Source: Mailhella massiliensis
GTDB lineage: Bacteria > Desulfobacterota > Desulfovibrionia > Desulfovibrionales > Desulfovibrionaceae
Reading direction: 5' to 3'
DNA: 64,000 nucleotides
NCBI RefSeq assembly: GCF_900155525.1
Contig: NZ_LT706951.1
Span: 194,129 to 258,128, forward strand
Shown: piece after piece, positions 11,954 through 25,124 of the stretch
Layout: each line of letters begins with the position of its first letter
Position numbering within the stretch: the first letter of the stretch is position 1
Translations under genes and position numbers: made by a program
Notes under the pieces: generated by a model
The model's input: the letters and a program-made list of their open reading frames with translations, nothing else
Databases searched by the model: none
Told to the model about the DNA's origin: nothing

Positions 11954-13054
11954 TTGGATCTTCATTTCGGACTCTGCGCGGCGGTATTTTCCGCAGGAAT
12001 ATTTTCTTTCTTTTCGCCATGCATCCTGCCGCTTCTGCCGCTGTATTTCGGCTATTTTTCTTCCGACGGGCAGGCCCTTTCTCCCTTTGCCGACAGAATG
12101 AAGAAAACATTCGCCTTTGTGGCGGGCGTTTCCACGGTATTTTTTCTCATGGGGCTTGGGGCCGGTTTTGCCGGGGCCCTTTTTCAGAACAAAATGTTCC
12201 TGGTGTTCTGCGGCGCGCTCATTGTCCTTATGGGCATACATCAGACAGGGCTGCTGGAAATTCCCCTGCTGAACCGCACGCGGGCCTTTTCTTCTCCCGT
12301 GGCTCCCGGAAAGGGACTGCTCGGCGCGTTTGCACTCGGCTTTTTCTTTTCCTTCGGGTGGACGCCGTGCGTGGGGCCTGCGCTGGCCATGGTGCTCGGG
12401 ATTTCCCTTCAGCAGGGCGATGCGCTGACGGGCGGCATTCTGCTCCTCTTCTATGTGGCGGGATTCACCCTGCCGTTTCTGCTGCTGGCGGCGGGTTCCC
12501 GGGTGCTTTTAACCAGAATCCGCGGTCTGTACCCGTATCTCGACAAGATCAAGGTTGCGGGCGGCCTGCTGGTGATGACCATGGGCATATGGATGATTGC
12601 CGCCCAGCTCATCACGCCCCCGCAGCAGATGGAAGGCAATACGCTCAGCGGAGCCACAGTTTCCCGGGAGGACTGGGCGGGCAAACCCGTCTATCTGAAG
12701 TTCTGGGCCACCTGGTGCCCGGCCTGTCTTGCAGGCCTTGGGGAATTTCAGGAACTTGCGGAGGAATACGCCGGTCGTGACGATGTAGTCATTTATTCCG
12801 TAATAGCGCCCGGCATTCATAACGAAATGGACCGGAAAACCTTTTCCGACTGGGCAAACGGCCAGAAGTTCACGTTTCCCGTTCTTTTCGATGAAGGCGG
12901 AAGCATGGGGATGCAATACGGCATAAGGGCCTATCCCACCTCGGTATTTCTGGACGGAAAAGGCAATGTGGCCTTTGTCCGCATCGGGCACATGGGAAAT
13001 GAGGAAATCCGCAACCGCCTTGCAGAACTGGCAAAGAAGGAGGCACAGGAATGA
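11954..13054 (+). CDS. CcdA/DsbD-type membrane reductase fused to thioredoxin domain
   Basis: 366 residues from TTG 11954, chosen because GGGAGG (11941-11946) lies 7 bases upstream. The N-terminal half has about six membrane segments with two conserved cysteine-proline sites (FFSPCILP near residue 20 and FGWTPCVGP near 135), as in CcdA/DsbD. A C-terminal TlpA-like thioredoxin domain carries WCPAC (C255, C258) and the cis-proline segment [10 protein letters not shown]. It should pass electrons from cytoplasmic thioredoxin across the membrane to an extracytoplasmic partner. The ATGA overlap with msrAB (13051-13054) makes MsrAB the obvious client. It is a compact alternative to the three-domain DsbD. 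Confidence 0.88.
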
Positions 13055-14184
13055 AACGCGCGTTGTTGATGCTGGCTGCGGCCGGCTGCCTGCTGTGTTC
13101 CTTTGCCGGTGGGGCCGTTGCCGTTACGAAGGAGGCTCCCATCATGAAAAACGACATACATGCGGCTGCAACGATTGAGGATCAGAACTGGAGAACGTGG
13201 AACGATGCGCCGCGCCTGAGGGAAATTTTCTATGCGGGCGGCTGCTTCTGGGGCGTGGAAGCCTATTTTTCCCAGATTCCCGGAGTGCGGGACGTGACGG
13301 TGGGCTATGCCAACGGCACGACGGAGCGCCCCTCCTACGAGCAGGTATGCAGCGGCCGGACGGGCCATGCGGAAACCGTTCATGTGATTTATGACCCGGA
13401 AGTGATCGGCCTGAAAAAGCTGACCGAACACTTTTTCAAAATCATCAACCCGCTTTCGTCGAACCGGCAGGGAAACGATGTGGGCAGTCAGTACCGGAGC
13501 GGCATCTACTATACCGATGAGGCGGATCGTCAACTTCTGCGCGCCGTACTGGATGCAGAGCAGAAAAAGTATGCTTCTCCCATTGTGACGGAGCTGCTCC
13601 CCCTGAAGAATTATTACCTGGCGGAAGACTATCATCAGGACTATCTGGTCAAGAATCCGGGAGGCTACTGCCATATCGACTTTTCCGGTCTGTCCGAGTT
13701 CGGCCGGATGGTCGATCCTGCCGACTACGCAAAACCTTCGGATGAGGTCCTCCGGGCCAGACTTACCGGGGAACAGTACATGGTCACGCAGAAGGGGCAT
13801 ACCGAACATGCGTATTCGGGCGAGTACGATCATCTCTTTGAGCCCGGCATCTATGTGGATATCGTGACGGGGGAACCGCTGTTCCTTTCTTCCGACAAGT
13901 TCGATTCCGGCTGCGGGTGGCCCAGCTTTTCCCGCCCCATTGAACCGGAAGTGATTGTGGAATACCCCGACAACAGCTACGGCCTGAGGCGTACGGAGGT
14001 ACGCAGCCGCGTGGGCGACAGCCATCTTGGTCATGTCTTCAACGACGGTCCGGCCAGACTGGGCGGTCTGCGTTACTGCATCAACAGCGCTTCTCTGCGC
14101 TTCATTCCCTATGAGGATATGGAAAAAGAAGGGTACGGGAAGTTCAAAAGTCTGGTGACGGACGCGGCTGTCCGGGAGAAGTAG
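13051..14184 (+). CDS. msrAB: Secreted bifunctional methionine sulfoxide reductase MsrA-MsrB
   Basis: 377 residues. An N-terminal signal peptide (about 1-25, with an [18 protein letters not shown] core) is followed by an MsrA domain with GCFWG and catalytic C65, then an MsrB domain from about residue 240 with [15 protein letters not shown] and catalytic C343 in [11 protein letters not shown]. The usual structural-zinc CxxC pairs of many MsrB proteins are absent, as in PilB-type fusions. It reduces both epimers of protein methionine sulfoxide outside the cytoplasm. Reducing power likely comes from the CcdA-thioredoxin protein encoded immediately upstream with a 4-base overlap. The layout parallels the Neisseria PilB strategy but with the membrane relay as a separate chain. 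Confidence 0.93.
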
Positions 14185-20889: not shown

Positions 20890-21433
20890 GATATCACCAG
20901 TAAAGAAAAGGTTGGGGCAGAAGCCCGATAGCACATCTTTCGTTGAAAAGTATTAAAAAGTCAAGAATAAATTTATTTTGTAAATAAATTGAAAATTGAA
21001 TTTTGTTGCCGAAGAAGAAGGTGACGGGGAGAAGAAACCGGCTGCGGGACGCCGGGAAACACCTCCCCCGTGGAGAAGGCGGAAAGATGTACCGGCGCCG
21101 TCATCTCAGGTGTCGGGGCTGAACAGGCGGGAAAGCCTTGCCAATGTTCTTTTCTTCTGTGTGTCGCGGAGCTGCGGGCTTGGAGGTTCGGACAGGTGTT
21201 TTCTGCGCGGAAGGACCGCCGGTATCCTATGGCCCGAAGCATGAAAACGGATGGGAAAAGACGGGAGAGAAGAAGAGGCGGCGCGGCGGGCGGATCATGC
21301 CGGGAACGGGGAATTCCCGGTCATGGACGGCGGAAGAAGAAACGGGGCGAAGGGCGCGCTCTGCTCCAAGAGGGGGGCTTCCGGGCGGCGTCCATATGAG
21401 AAAGGGGGAGATGAAGAGCAGGTCGGAAAACGC
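20890..21433. other. Non-coding interval upstream of recN
   Basis: About 540 bases. The part next to recN (about 20941-21005) is AT-rich and is probably the recN promoter region; TTGACT is present on the minus strand around 20960 but no good -10 is spaced from it. The rest is GC-rich without a credible gene; plus-strand frames crossing it are shadows of the minus-strand genes. Confidence 0.45.
20970..20990. promoter_or_regulatory. AT-rich inverted repeat upstream of recN
   Basis: Perfect 9-bp arms AATTTATTT (20970-20978) and AAATAAATT (20982-20990) separated by 3 bases, about 80 bases upstream of the recN start in an otherwise GC-rich neighbourhood. It resembles an operator dyad. It does not match the E. 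coli LexA box, and the protein binding it is unknown. Confidence 0.4.
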
Positions 21434-21469
21434 AAAAACGCGCCGGAGCGTTTGCCCCGGCGCGTTTTT
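21434..21469 (-). terminator. Intrinsic terminator of the purM-cbiK/aminotransferase operon
   Basis: 13-bp perfect stem (21434-21446 with 21457-21469, 10-base loop) whose ends are AAAAA and TTTTT, so it can act in both directions. It lies 19 bases after the aminotransferase stop on the minus strand. Confidence 0.9.
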
Positions 21470-21488
21470 ATCGGCAGGTTGCGGAAGG

Positions 21489-23630
21489 TCAGCCTTTCAG
21501 CGCCTTGCGGAAGCCTTCGGCCGAACGCTCGATGACGGCGTCTTCCACGGCAAACGAGAGGCGGAAATAGCCGGGATAGCCGAAGCCGGAACTCGGCACG
21601 GCAAGAACGAGGTTCTGCGTAAGGCGTTCCACAATGGCCTTGTCGTCGCCGCCCGGGGCCTTGGGGAAGAAGTAGAAGGTGCCCTTCGGCAGCGTGAATT
21701 CGTAGCCTGCGTCGGACAGAATGGCGGCAAGGCGGTTGCGGCGGCGGGTATAGACGGCGAGAGCCTCTTCGGTGGAGGTGCCGAGGCATTCCGCCATGAG
21801 GTACTGGCCCACCACGGGCGGGTTGACGAAGCCGAGCACGCGGTTGGAGAAGATAAGGCCGTCCATGAGCTTGTCCGCATCGTCCATGGCGGGATTTATG
21901 GCGATGTAGCCCACTCTTTCCCCGGCCATGCCGTAATTCTTGGCAAAGGAGCTGATGACCACGGCGTGCTTGTAGAGCGGAAGCGCGGCGGGAACTTCCA
22001 GGCCGTCGTAGGCAAGGAAGCGGTAGGGTTCGTCGGCAATGAGGTAGATGACGCGCCCGATGCGCTTCGAGGCTTCCTCAAGCATGGCGGCGAGGGCGGC
22101 AATGTCTTCCTTCGTGTACACCGCGCCGGAAGGGTTGTTGGGCGAGTTGATGATGACGGCCCGGGTGCGCGGCGTGACGGCGGCGGCAAGGGCCTCCACG
22201 TCGGGGCCGAAGTCTTCCGCCCGGCAGGGCACGGGCCGCAGCGTTCCGCCGTGATTGCTCACATAGAAGCGGTATTCGCCGAAGAAGGGCGCGACGGTGA
22301 GCACCTCGTCGCCGGGTTCCAGCACGGTATGGAAAAAGGCGTTCATCACGCCTGCCGCGCCGCAGCCGAGCATGACGTGCCTTGCCTCAAGGGCGGTCTG
22401 CTGCTGGAGACTCAGCCATGCGGCCAGCTTTTCCCGCGCCCAGGCGAAGCCGCCGTTGGGCATGTAGCCGAGAATGCCCGGCTCGGAAAGGCGGGCGGCA
22501 AGGGCGCTCATGGCGCGCCTGGCTTCCGCAGGCGGGGCGAGATCGGGATTGCCGAGGCTGAAGTCGCACACGGCGTCGGCCCCGTATTTTTTGCGAAGTT
22601 CGATGCCGGCCTCGAACATGCGCCGGATCATGGAACCCTGGGAAAGGTTTTGCTCCATGGCGGAGCTGATAACGGAAGCGGACATGGCAGACTCCTTGAA
22701 GGTTGGGAGGGAAACGGAGAGCGTGGGGGCGATTCCGGCCTCCGGGGCGTCGGAATCGTTGCTCTGCGGAAAAAGAGGCGGACAGGGGAGGGGCAGGGCC
22801 GGATCGTCCAGCGCGGCAAGGGCTTCATCGAGCCTGTCCAGCCAGAGGTCGATGAAGGCCGGATCGTCGGCAAGACCGCGCAGTTCCGCCTGGCAGCGGT
22901 ATCCGGCGGCTTCAATGCGGCTTTTCCAGGAACCGGGAGCCGTGCCCGCCATATCTTCCAGCGTATGACGCCCCACAAGGGAAAGCAGGGGCATGAGCCA
23001 CACGCGGCGGGAGGGAGGCGCTTCCTGCGCCAGGGCGGGCAGAAGAATGTCGAGCCCGTCGGAGGGGAGGGCATTTTCTTCCGCGCGGCGCAGGCCCCGG
23101 CCCACCATGCAGGCGATATGGATATGAGCGTCCAGTTCCCGCACGGCGTCCGCCAGGCGTCGGTAAAGGATGTCGCACTCGTGACGGCTGCCGTGAGCCA
23201 TGTATATCACGGGCTCGTCGGGGGCGCGGAGCGGGGAAAGATGGCGGATGAGCGTGTGCGCGGCACAGGCGATGGCATGATCGCCTGGCCCGGAAAGCAG
23301 GGGCATACCGAGACTGACGGCAAGCCCGTCATCCTCCATGCCCGCGCGGCACTCGGCGGCCACGGCTCCGTATTCCATGCCGGGAATAAGGTGCAGGGGC
23401 TGCACGGCCACATGGGTGTAGCGTTCAAAACGCATACGCTTCAGCGCCTTGATGACGGAATCGGATTTGGTGCGGGAGCTGGCAAGGCGCATCCGCATGG
23501 TTTCCGACGTGAAGGCCCAGCGCACGGGCAGGGAGAAACGTGCCTCCGCAGCAGCCTGCACGGCGCGCAGGGCGCTCGCCCCGCGTATGTTGCCGAAACC
23601 GTAGGCCGCGAGGAGAATACCGCGTTTCAT
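21489..23630 (-). CDS. Fusion: CbiK-type sirohydrochlorin cobaltochelatase with PLP aminotransferase
   Basis: 713 residues. Residues 1 to about 270 match CbiK: ILLAAYGFGN start, WAFTSETMRMRL, VQPLHLIPGMEY, MAHGSRHE and LLSLVGRHTLEDMAG, with the two metal-site histidines present. CbiK inserts Co2+ (or Fe2+) into sirohydrochlorin for cobalamin or siroheme. Residues 316-713 form a complete fold-type I aminotransferase: FSLGNPDLAPP, GYMPNGGFAWAREKLA, INSPNNPSG, ADEPYRF and PLP lysine K564 in SSFAKNYGMAGERVGY. A disordered linker joins them. A strong internal AAGGAG lies 6 bases before the in-frame ATG 22685, so the aminotransferase may also be made alone. The start overlaps the DUF523 gene by ATGA. 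Confidence 0.88.
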   Translation of the reverse strand: MKRGILLAAYGFGNIRGASALRAVQAAAEARFSLPVRWAFTSETMRMRLASSRTKSDSVIKALKRMRFERYTHVAVQPLHLIPGMEYGAVAAECRAGMEDDGLAVSLGMPLLSGPGDHAIACAAHTLIRHLSPLRAPDEPVIYMAHGSRHECDILYRRLADAVRELDAHIHIACMVGRGLRRAEENALPSDGLDILLPALAQEAPPSRRVWLMPLLSLVGRHTLEDMAGTAPGSWKSRIEAAGYRCQAELRGLADDPAFIDLWLDRLDEALAALDDPALPLPCPPLFPQSNDSDAPEAGIAPTLSVSLPTFKESAMSASVISSAMEQNLSQGSMIRRMFEAGIELRKKYGADAVCDFSLGNPDLAPPAEARRAMSALAARLSEPGILGYMPNGGFAWAREKLAAWLSLQQQTALEARHVMLGCGAAGVMNAFFHTVLEPGDEVLTVAPFFGEYRFYVSNHGGTLRPVPCRAEDFGPDVEALAAAVTPRTRAVIINSPNNPSGAVYTKEDIAALAAMLEEASKRIGRVIYLIADEPYRFLAYDGLEVPAALPLYKHAVVISSFAKNYGMAGERVGYIAINPAMDDADKLMDGLIFSNRVLGFVNPPVVGQYLMAECLGTSTEEALAVYTRRRNRLAAILSDAGYEFTLPKGTFYFFPKAPGGDDKAIVERLTQNLVLAVPSSGFGYPGYFRLSFAVEDAVIERSAEGFRKALKG
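22686..22698 (-). promoter_or_regulatory. Internal ribosome-binding site for the aminotransferase half
   Basis: On the minus strand AAGGAG is followed by TCTGCC and ATG 22685. The sequence downstream of that ATG matches a full-length aminotransferase N-terminus, so this site could direct a separate 398-residue product from the same frame. Confidence 0.7.
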
Positions 23631-24079
23631 GCCTGTTCCGAGGAAAAGGTTTCTTCGGTAAAGAGCTGGAAGCCCTTTTTACGCAGAAGTTCGGCGAAGA
23701 GGCCGTCGCCGTCGATAAGGGTATGGGTGAAGGTGCCGTCGTAAATGCGCCCGCACCCGCAGGAAGGGGACCGCGCCTTGAGTATGGCGGCCGAACAGCC
23801 GCATTCTTCCGCAATGTAGAGCGCGGCTTCCGCTCCGGCGGCAAAGGCTTCCGTCACGTCCTCCCCGGTGGCGAAGCAGACCCGTCCGCCCTTGCGTTCG
23901 CTGGGCGTACGCGGCGTGGGCAGGCCCCCCAGCACTTCGGGGCATACGGGTACGGCCTCTCCCGCTTCCACAAGCGCGGCCACTTCCGCCCTCAGGTTGG
24001 AGCGGCCGTCGTAACGGCAGCACTGGCCCGCAAGGCAGGCGCTCACCACATAGCGGCAGGGCTTTTTCAGCTCAGTCAA
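23627..24079 (-). CDS. DUF523 (YbbK-like) cysteine-rich protein
   Basis: 150 residues. It carries the DUF523 signature: VVSACLAGQCCRYDG at residues 11-25, PVCPEVLGGLPTPR near 44, and KARSPSCGCGRIYDG near 101. The conserved cysteines suggest a metal or Fe-S site; the function is unknown, with a possible link to thiol or 2-thiouridine chemistry in the literature on related families. It overlaps purM by 8 bases at its start and the cbiK fusion by 4 bases at its end, so translation is coupled across all three genes. Confidence 0.9.
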   Translation of the reverse strand: MTELKKPCRYVVSACLAGQCCRYDGRSNLRAEVAALVEAGEAVPVCPEVLGGLPTPRTPSERKGGRVCFATGEDVTEAFAAGAEAALYIAEECGCSAAILKARSPSCGCGRIYDGTFTHTLIDGDGLFAELLRKKGFQLFTEETFSSEQA

Positions 24080-25124
24080 AGGAAATCTCCACCTGTTCCT
24101 GATGTTCCTTGCGGCGGACTATGGTGCCTATCTCCCAGGCTTCCGTGTGCATGGACTTGAAGCGGGGGAGCATGTCGTCGGCCGTGGCCCTGTCGGTGAT
24201 CATGATGTAGCCTATGCCGCAGTTGAAGATCTGGAGCATTTCCGGCCAGGTGAGATTCCCCTGTTCCCTGATCCAGTCGAAAATGGCGGGGTGTTCCCAG
24301 CTGTTGAAGCGGATGTTCGCACATACGGAAGGCGAAAGCACGCGGGGAATGTTGTCGTAGAAGCCGCCGCCCGTGATGTGGACCATGCCCTTGATGGGCA
24401 GATCGCGCATGATGGATTTGACCTGATCGGCATAGATGACCGTGGGCGTGAGCAGCACGTCGGCAAAGGTGCGGTCCGTTCCGGGAACGATGTCGTCGCC
24501 CTTGACGCCGCTTTCCTCATAGATTCTGCGTACCAGCGAATAGCCGTTGGAATGAAGCCCGGAGGAGGCGAGACCGATGATCACGTCGCCTACGCTGATG
24601 GTGGAGCCGTCCACTATCCTGGGGCCGTCCACGATGCCTACGCAGAAGCCTGCGAGATCGTAGTCGCCCCTGGCGTACATGCCGGGCATTTCCGCCGTTT
24701 CTCCGCCGAGAAGCGTGCAGCCGCTCTGGCGGCAGCCTTCCACGATGCCGCCCACCACCGTGGCGGCAAGGTCGACGTCAAGCTCGCCGCAGGAAAAGTA
24801 GTCGAGGAAAAAGAGAGGCTTGGCTCCGAGCACCAGGCAGTCGTTCACGCTCATGGCCACAAGGTCTATGCCTACGGTGTCGTGCCGGTTGAAAAGAGAG
24901 GCCATTTTGAGCTTCGTGCCGACGCCATCGGTACCGGACACGAGAACCGGCGACTGCATACCCGTGATGTCGGGACGGAACAGGCCGCCGAAGCCGCCTA
25001 TGTCCGAAAGGACGCCATGGGTCTGCGTGCTGGCCACCATGTCTTTAATGCGGGCGACCAGTTCGTTGCCCGCGTTGATGTTCACACCCGCTGAGGTGTA
25101 TGCGTCGGACCGGGAAACACTCAT
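24072..25124 (-). CDS. purM: Phosphoribosylformylglycinamidine cyclo-ligase
   Basis: 350 residues, normal PurM length. Motifs: SAGVNINAGNELV at the start, GGFGGLFRP, SGTDGVGTKLKMA, DLVAMSVNDCLVLGAKPLFF, GGETAEMPGMY and GLASSGLHSNGYSLVR. It closes the imidazole ring (FGAM to AIR, ATP-dependent) in purine synthesis. GGAG lies about 9 bases before ATG 25124. It heads an operon with DUF523 and the cbiK-aminotransferase gene, linked by overlapping start/stop codons, and has its own well-formed promoter upstream. Confidence 0.96.
   Translation of the reverse strand: MSVSRSDAYTSAGVNINAGNELVARIKDMVASTQTHGVLSDIGGFGGLFRPDITGMQSPVLVSGTDGVGTKLKMASLFNRHDTVGIDLVAMSVNDCLVLGAKPLFFLDYFSCGELDVDLAATVVGGIVEGCRQSGCTLLGGETAEMPGMYARGDYDLAGFCVGIVDGPRIVDGSTISVGDVIIGLASSGLHSNGYSLVRRIYEESGVKGDDIVPGTDRTFADVLLTPTVIYADQVKSIMRDLPIKGMVHITGGGFYDNIPRVLSPSVCANIRFNSWEHPAIFDWIREQGNLTWPEMLQIFNCGIGYIMITDRATADDMLPRFKSMHTEAWEIGTIVRRKEHQEQVEISFD

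Follow-up and report, generated by a model that had tools for sequence, protein, structure and literature searches.

An in-frame fusion of a CbiK-family chelatase and a PLP aminotransferase in Mailhella, with a conserved internal ribosome site

The closest described chelatases are the periplasmic CbiK of Desulfovibrio vulgaris (2xvx) and the CbiK of Salmonella (1qgo). According to the available part of PMC4063343, Salmonella CbiK inserts cobalt or iron with a preference for cobalt, and the "CbiX" of Paracoccus pantotrophus is a ferrochelatase that carries a cobalt name; two histidines are essential in it, and the acidic residues tested are replaceable and dispensable. For the aminotransferase, the reference is 3ele from Eubacterium rectale, a PRK06836-family protein of 398 residues that stands alone as a free chain. 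One frame with a full-length product and a C-terminal product from an internal start has been described for yscQ/sctQ, where assembly of the long form depends on the short one (PMC4295842, in the part available). Translationally coupled gene pairs are treated in the accessible parts of PMC12548453 and PMC10666635. Fusions are also found in tetrapyrrole synthesis, where CysG and CobA-HemD join steps of one pathway (PMC4921024, in the portion available).

Here, we analyzed a 64,000-nucleotide stretch of the Mailhella massiliensis genome (3,465,670 bases), called the window below, in which a CbiK-family chelatase and an aminotransferase share one reading frame. The chelatase half resembles 2xvx and 1qgo in fold and in its two active-site histidines but has valine, isoleucine, or lysine in Mailhella at a glutamate of 2xvx, shows no visible signal peptide, continues into a C-terminal aminotransferase, and occurs in fused species that lack cobalamin markers. 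The P. pantotrophus protein belongs to another subfamily and is unfused, and the ferrochelatase activity of the Mailhella half is putative. The aminotransferase half is 35% identical to 3ele but is preceded in frame by the chelatase. Unlike those of yscQ/sctQ, the two starts in Mailhella belong to what would be two formerly separate genes. Some unfused relatives resemble coupled pairs in that stop and start, or stop and Shine-Dalgarno sequence, overlap, whereas the fused species have no stop between the genes; several other unfused relatives have gaps of 30–77 nt, where the available text of PMC10666635 would lead one to expect little coupling. Unlike CysG and CobA-HemD, this fusion pairs the chelatase with an enzyme that appears unrelated. 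Among the papers listed in the literature searched, judged by titles and abstract openings, we found no description of a CbiK-aminotransferase fusion. With fair confidence, we read the locus as a lineage-specific, operon-derived fusion that yields two products and carries a siroheme-type chelatase.

The fused gene and its relatives in Mailhella

The gene lies on the minus strand (Table 1) and, in the list of open reading frames and their translations, runs uninterrupted from ATG to stop without an internal stop codon. The earlier note, made from the letters alone, had read it as a CbiK and a PLP aminotransferase joined by a Pro/Ser-rich linker, and profile searches agreed. The Pfam CbiK family matched residues 21–271 of the 713-residue protein (PF06180, 113.3 bits against a curated cut-off of 26.2), Aminotran_1_2 matched residues 355–705 above its cut-off, and the NCBIfam equivalog PRK06836 (NF005305) matched near full-length at residues 320–712, with 518.6 bits against 376. 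The fused protein was modeled with a mean pLDDT of 76.4 and a pTM of 0.54; the chelatase is mostly well ordered, the aminotransferase is of mixed confidence, and the linker of about 40 residues is disordered in the model (pLDDT below 50 at 279–315). A Foldseek comparison of the predicted model places the chelatase half in the two-domain chelatase fold of 2xvx (TMt 0.95, R.M.S.D. 1.4), with 34% identity over 277 alignment columns. The nearest solved structure to the aminotransferase half by Foldseek is 3ele, and the motif SSFAKNYG, picked out without an alignment, is presumably the PLP lysine motif. By calculation, the fusion weighs 77.2 kDa and the product that starts at Met316 weighs 43.0 kDa, close to the roughly 75 and 43 kDa proposed earlier.

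Table 1. Features of the fused gene and the genes upstream of it, in window coordinates
Feature	Position	Strand	Remarks
Fused ORF, chelatase-linker-aminotransferase	21489..23630	-	713 codons; same fusion in 7 other species
CbiK-family class II chelatase domain, residues 1-274	22809..23630	-	PF06180; 2xvx fold; both His
Linker, residues 275-315, Pro/Ser-rich	22686..22808	-	sequence and length vary between species
Internal Shine-Dalgarno AAGGAG	22692..22697	-	6 nt 5' of ATG
PLP aminotransferase (PRK06836 type), residues 316-713	21489..22685	-	own ATG at 22685; free form 398 aa
DUF523 / 2-thiouracil desulfurase family gene, upstream	23627..24079	-	PF04463, 155.9 bits
purM, first gene of the run purM-DUF523-cbiK-aminotransferase	24072..25124	-	TIGR00878, 401 bits against 236; same order in relatives

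Two further features of the locus were noted. The plus strand carries an 868-residue antisense ORF across the whole fused gene (21138–23744), which we read as an effect of composition. The TGA of the DUF523 gene overlaps the cbiK ATG (ATGA, 23627–23630), and translation is probably coupled there as well.

We searched 19 genomes of the genus, including the window's own, of which 16 have a readable junction. Two genomes without a match (G005 and G006) and one whose contig begins inside the aminotransferase (G018) were left out of the junction, linker, and tree work. The same in-frame fusion is present in 8 of the 16 (the window's own genome and G010–G016); the other eight carry two adjoining separate genes. 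A search of the genus for the fusion, which the earlier note had proposed for Desulfovibrionaceae, thus returned seven further species. The note had also held that close relatives with two separate genes would make the fusion a local mutation or an error; such relatives exist, but a local origin is not borne out. Because seven other species carry it, the fusion is, on these genomes, a lineage trait of crown Mailhella (Desulfovibrionaceae) and not a local read-through mutation.

Internal ribosome site, linker, and origin

The internal start is marked by AAGGAGTCTGCCATG at 22697–22683 on the minus strand, an AAGGAG-N6-ATG arrangement whose ATG encodes Met316. Matches to AAGGAGN4-9ATG number 11 in the window against 2.84 expected, and of the other ten, nine stand at the start of apparent genes, a judgment from ORF length and visual inspection, and one is intragenic. 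This last match (13129–13146) is a second internal AAGGAG..ATG, 31 codons into an MsrA/MsrB-type ORF (13051–14181) with a signal-like N-terminus, where an internal start could give an unexported form. In the fused gene, CAAGGAG and the ATG are invariant in all eight fused species, while most upstream linker bases vary. AAG makes up 57% of lysine codons and GAG only 28% of glutamate codons in the coding sequences of fused species. Since CAAGGAG is invariant although AAG-GAG is not the favored spelling of Lys-Glu, conservation of the internal start has strong support from the alignment. Unfused orthologues start their aminotransferase at the ATG matching Met316, and the ribosome-binding site is purine-rich at all 16 junctions (AAGGAG in 15, AGGGAG in G009). 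Accessibility of the site by folding (means of 0.52 in fused species, 0.46 in separate genes, and 0.43 in controls) is not clearly above controls, and for single fused species a fraction of 0.08–0.65 of the controls was equally high. Given the invariant AAGGAG and ATG, the aminotransferase is very likely still made in free form alongside the fusion. The earlier proposal of a strong internal site therefore stands, and its corollary, one gene with a fused and a free product, is probably right, judging from this invariance amid a variable linker.

The linker evolves quickly. Measured from a conserved tryptophan to the aminotransferase ATG, it spans 159, 153, 117, 159, 159, 150, 159, and 129 nt in the eight fused species, five different lengths that are all multiples of three; at the separate junctions, the remainders modulo 3 are 0, 1, 2, 2, 2, 2, 2, and 0. 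A parsimony count on the tree of both proteins requires at least four changes of linker length, all in frame, an outcome with a chance of about 1% if a third of indels were multiples of three. Weighed with the linker substitutions and base composition described below, these counts lend modest support to retention of the reading frame across the linker.

The most serious rival explanation is that the long frame is a near-neutral by-product of the loss of the cbiK stop, tolerated rather than selected, with the aminotransferase start in frame by chance and nearly all useful enzyme made from the internal start. This would be compatible with two products, and we regard it as a substantial possibility, albeit one that we lean against. 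It fits the strongly kept internal site, the rapid change of the linker, and the lack of an obvious metabolic connection between chelatase and aminotransferase. It also fits the base composition: the linkers are pyrimidine-rich and 37–84% of shuffled linkers are free of stops, so the missing stops are only mildly surprising. A coding signature of the linker was considered and rejected, as the cbiK frame was the most coding-like in 8 of 8 species when the scored stretch took in most of the chelatase tail but in only 4 of 8 once that tail and the ribosome-binding site were trimmed, which again suits a near-neutral history. At the level of residues, in the more distant comparison of G000 with G014, the linker shows 14.5 synonymous and 22.5 nonsynonymous substitutions, and because its pN/pS of about 0.54 compares with 0.14 for CbiK, the constraint on linker residues appears weak. 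Against neutrality stand the in-frame length changes and the G016/G015 linker, with four synonymous changes (one of them in the chelatase tail) and no nonsynonymous change.

Gene order points to where the fusion came from. The run purM-DUF523-cbiK-aminotransferase occurs in 15 of 80 CbiK loci, all from congeners or close kin, including Desulfovibrio sp. RGIG8338 (L065). The remaining 65 have no close aminotransferase homologue adjoining CbiK in the flanks examined, some of which were short; in one of the loci (L090), a homologue lies 2.5 kb from CbiK on the opposite strand. In the sister genus g40, the run is present as separate genes in G274 and G276, where the TAG stop of cbiK lies inside TAGGAG. 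The gap between cbiK and the aminotransferase is about 440 nt in G275, and the genes appear linked in G272 and G273 from coordinates alone. Two unfused Mailhella (G017 and G008) likewise have the cbiK stop in or at the aminotransferase ribosome-binding site (TAAGGAG and TGAAGGAG). A quick tree that included a small number of other genera, whose loci were the best-scoring 13 and not a broad sample, places the g40 aminotransferases as the sister group of the Mailhella ones (SH-aLRT 99). Because this sister genus has the same unfused run, gene order indicates that separate genes are the older state.

Trees were built from the 16 genus genomes plus L065; the CbiK tree and motif table covered 33 of the 80 loci. 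In the joint tree of both proteins, the fused rows fall on one side of one branch (80/83), so that one change is needed, and the CbiK tree agrees with a single fusion (SH-aLRT 90). The aminotransferase-only tree disagrees and places the separate G003 and G004 among the fused species (71/81). As two trees fit and the third does not, the fusion most simply arose once on this evidence, and on the third tree a later fission is conceivable.

Taken together, we propose the following sequence of events. The ancestor would have had the run purM-DUF523-cbiK-aminotransferase, with the cbiK stop in or beside the aminotransferase Shine-Dalgarno sequence in some lines, an arrangement that would couple translation of the two genes. 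An in-frame loss of the cbiK stop, most simply once, would then have created a CbiK-linker-aminotransferase protein, with the internal AAGGAG and ATG retained. Each mRNA would most likely give a 77 kDa fusion from the cbiK start and a 43 kDa free aminotransferase from the internal start.

The metal of the chelatase half

The two active-site histidines (His145 and His207 of Salmonella CbiK) are kept in all 16 genus rows, in the motifs MAHG/MGHG and GxHxxxDM, and in all three g40 rows. The glutamate of the 2xvx VEG motif, which we take to be a third acidic residue with a role in class II chelatases, is replaced by valine, isoleucine, or lysine in 16 of 16 Mailhella rows, fused or not, and is present in two of the three g40 rows. 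Among the unfused CbiK loci L070–L091, mostly from Desulfovibrionaceae, this position is N, D, S, A, K, or E, and both histidines are kept. We therefore rejected the idea that fusion caused the loss of the glutamate, as unfused Mailhella have the replacement too and the L070–L091 loci differ among themselves at this position.

The earlier note had called this half a cobalt chelatase with a possible cobamide role, and the genomes point elsewhere. A profile search found CbiD in only 3 of the 19 genus genomes (G001, G002, and G007) and not in the other 16, which include all eight fused species. The same three genomes carry five or six PF00590 methylases and a second CbiK whose N-terminus, on visual inspection, resembles a signal peptide. 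The other 16 have zero to two PF00590 matches; identities were assigned in the window's genome, whose two matches are CobA-HemD and RsmI, an rRNA enzyme, so that the PF00590 search found no cobalamin methylases there. A role in cobalamin synthesis was rejected on these grounds. The CbiK half also scores only 102 bits against the cut-off of 400 for the sirohydrochlorin cobaltochelatase family NF047852, although the second CbiKs of G001, G002, and G007 fall below it as well (177–187 bits).

By contrast, the siroheme and heme branch is present. A precorrin-2 dehydrogenase-type protein (CysG-type N-terminal) was found in 18 of 19 genomes, missing in the fused G011, which is 76% complete, and the siroheme decarboxylase family in all 19, with two proteins in the window's genome. 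The CbiX profile matched in one of the 19, in G007, where it overlaps the CbiK match; the window's genome gave no CbiX match. The CbiK and CbiX profiles, the two that our search for chelatases covered, detected no further class II chelatase in the fused species. As CbiD is absent, the siroheme genes remain, and these species have no other CbiK or CbiX match, the CbiK half is most likely a sirohydrochlorin ferrochelatase, as predicted from genome context. It would then most likely insert Fe2+ into sirohydrochlorin to give siroheme, rather than Co2+ for cobalamin; the siroheme would supply DsrAB in species that have it and feed heme synthesis via siroheme decarboxylase. The literature searched has no paper on Mailhella with siroheme and none on DVU1364, DVU0650, or PRK06836; DVU1365 is described as a putative heme-binding protein in the available part of PMC11784015.

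The window's genome has dsrA. There was no dsrA match in 5 of the 19 genomes (G008 and G010–G013), four of them fused, of which G012 is listed as 100% and G013 as 96% complete, and dissimilatory sulfite reduction may have disappeared from part of the genus. In the genomes without a match, siroheme would serve heme synthesis.

A competing explanation is that siroheme is also a product of the precorrin-2 dehydrogenase and that the CbiK-like half carries heme or metal or is inactive. We judge this unlikely, though by no means far-fetched. The dehydrogenase-type protein is nearly universal in the genus and could, like CysG, have ferrochelatase activity as a second function. The 2xvx glutamate is missing from the CbiK half, which scores far below the cobaltochelatase cut-off, and the heme-binding protein FetB belongs to the CbiK family. 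The dehydrogenase explanation has more trouble with the two histidines, kept in every genus and g40 row, two of the latter with the glutamate. It also has to account for the absence of another CbiK or CbiX match in the fused species and for the presence of a CbiK match in 275 of 288 Desulfovibrionaceae genomes.

As a separate observation, tandem or close pairs of CbiK homologues occur at L097, L113 (5001–6820), and L132 (2300–4093), on Mangrovibacterium, Carboxylicivirga, and Prolixibacteraceae contigs.

The aminotransferase half and the meaning of the pairing

At E ≤ 1e-90, the aminotransferase is present in 266 of 288 family genomes and therefore appears to be a core Desulfovibrionaceae enzyme. 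Its linkage to cbiK is absent in most genomes compared and was seen only in Mailhella, G095 (the genome of L065), and g40 among the matches listed. The NCBIfam match, the comparison with 3ele, and the available part of PMC5764234 gave no assignment of its substrate, and we found no tie to tetrapyrroles beyond the shared gene run. Because the aminotransferase is a core enzyme that is unlinked to cbiK in most genomes compared, the simplest reading of the gene orders is that the pairing is operon-derived rather than metabolic and involves two independent enzymes. The two activities would probably be unrelated and joined only via descent from a shared operon. The earlier note had found the pairing unexpected; it is less so, since the genes were already neighbors in an operon-like run.

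The idea that a cobaltochelatase and an aminotransferase cooperate in synthesis of a cobamide side chain or nucleotide loop is very improbable. Membership of the CbiK family and the cobalt preference of the Salmonella enzyme, in the available part of PMC4063343, would suit it, but none of the eight fused species has CbiD, the window's genome has no cobalamin methylases, and the aminotransferase is widespread while adjoining cbiK only in the few lineages just named. Least of all do we credit an assembly or sequencing error that erased a true stop between codons 270 and 316, where the earlier note had suggested looking: the frame is open there, and the chance of such a fault is negligible because eight species are fused in frame with differing linkers, the six fused contigs checked in public records are different isolates and assemblies, and the fused G016 is a single-contig genome.

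Class I aminotransferases are usually dimers, and fused and free chains could therefore pair. It is conceivable, though we think it rather improbable, that the fusion itself has a function and is retained for it, as fused:free heterodimers that hold a siroheme chelatase on an aminotransferase scaffold. If this were true, siroheme supply would be tied to amino-nitrogen metabolism, and one internal ribosome site would set the ratio.

On the favored reading of an operon-derived fusion, its formation would be traceable step by step within one genus and its sister, from separate genes, through stops placed in the Shine-Dalgarno sequence, to an in-frame fusion in which the former start is retained. 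A "cobalt chelatase" gene in a lineage without cobalamin markers is better read as belonging to siroheme or heme synthesis. This reading would correct the automatic gene labels of Mailhella and perhaps those of other Desulfovibrionaceae from the gut.
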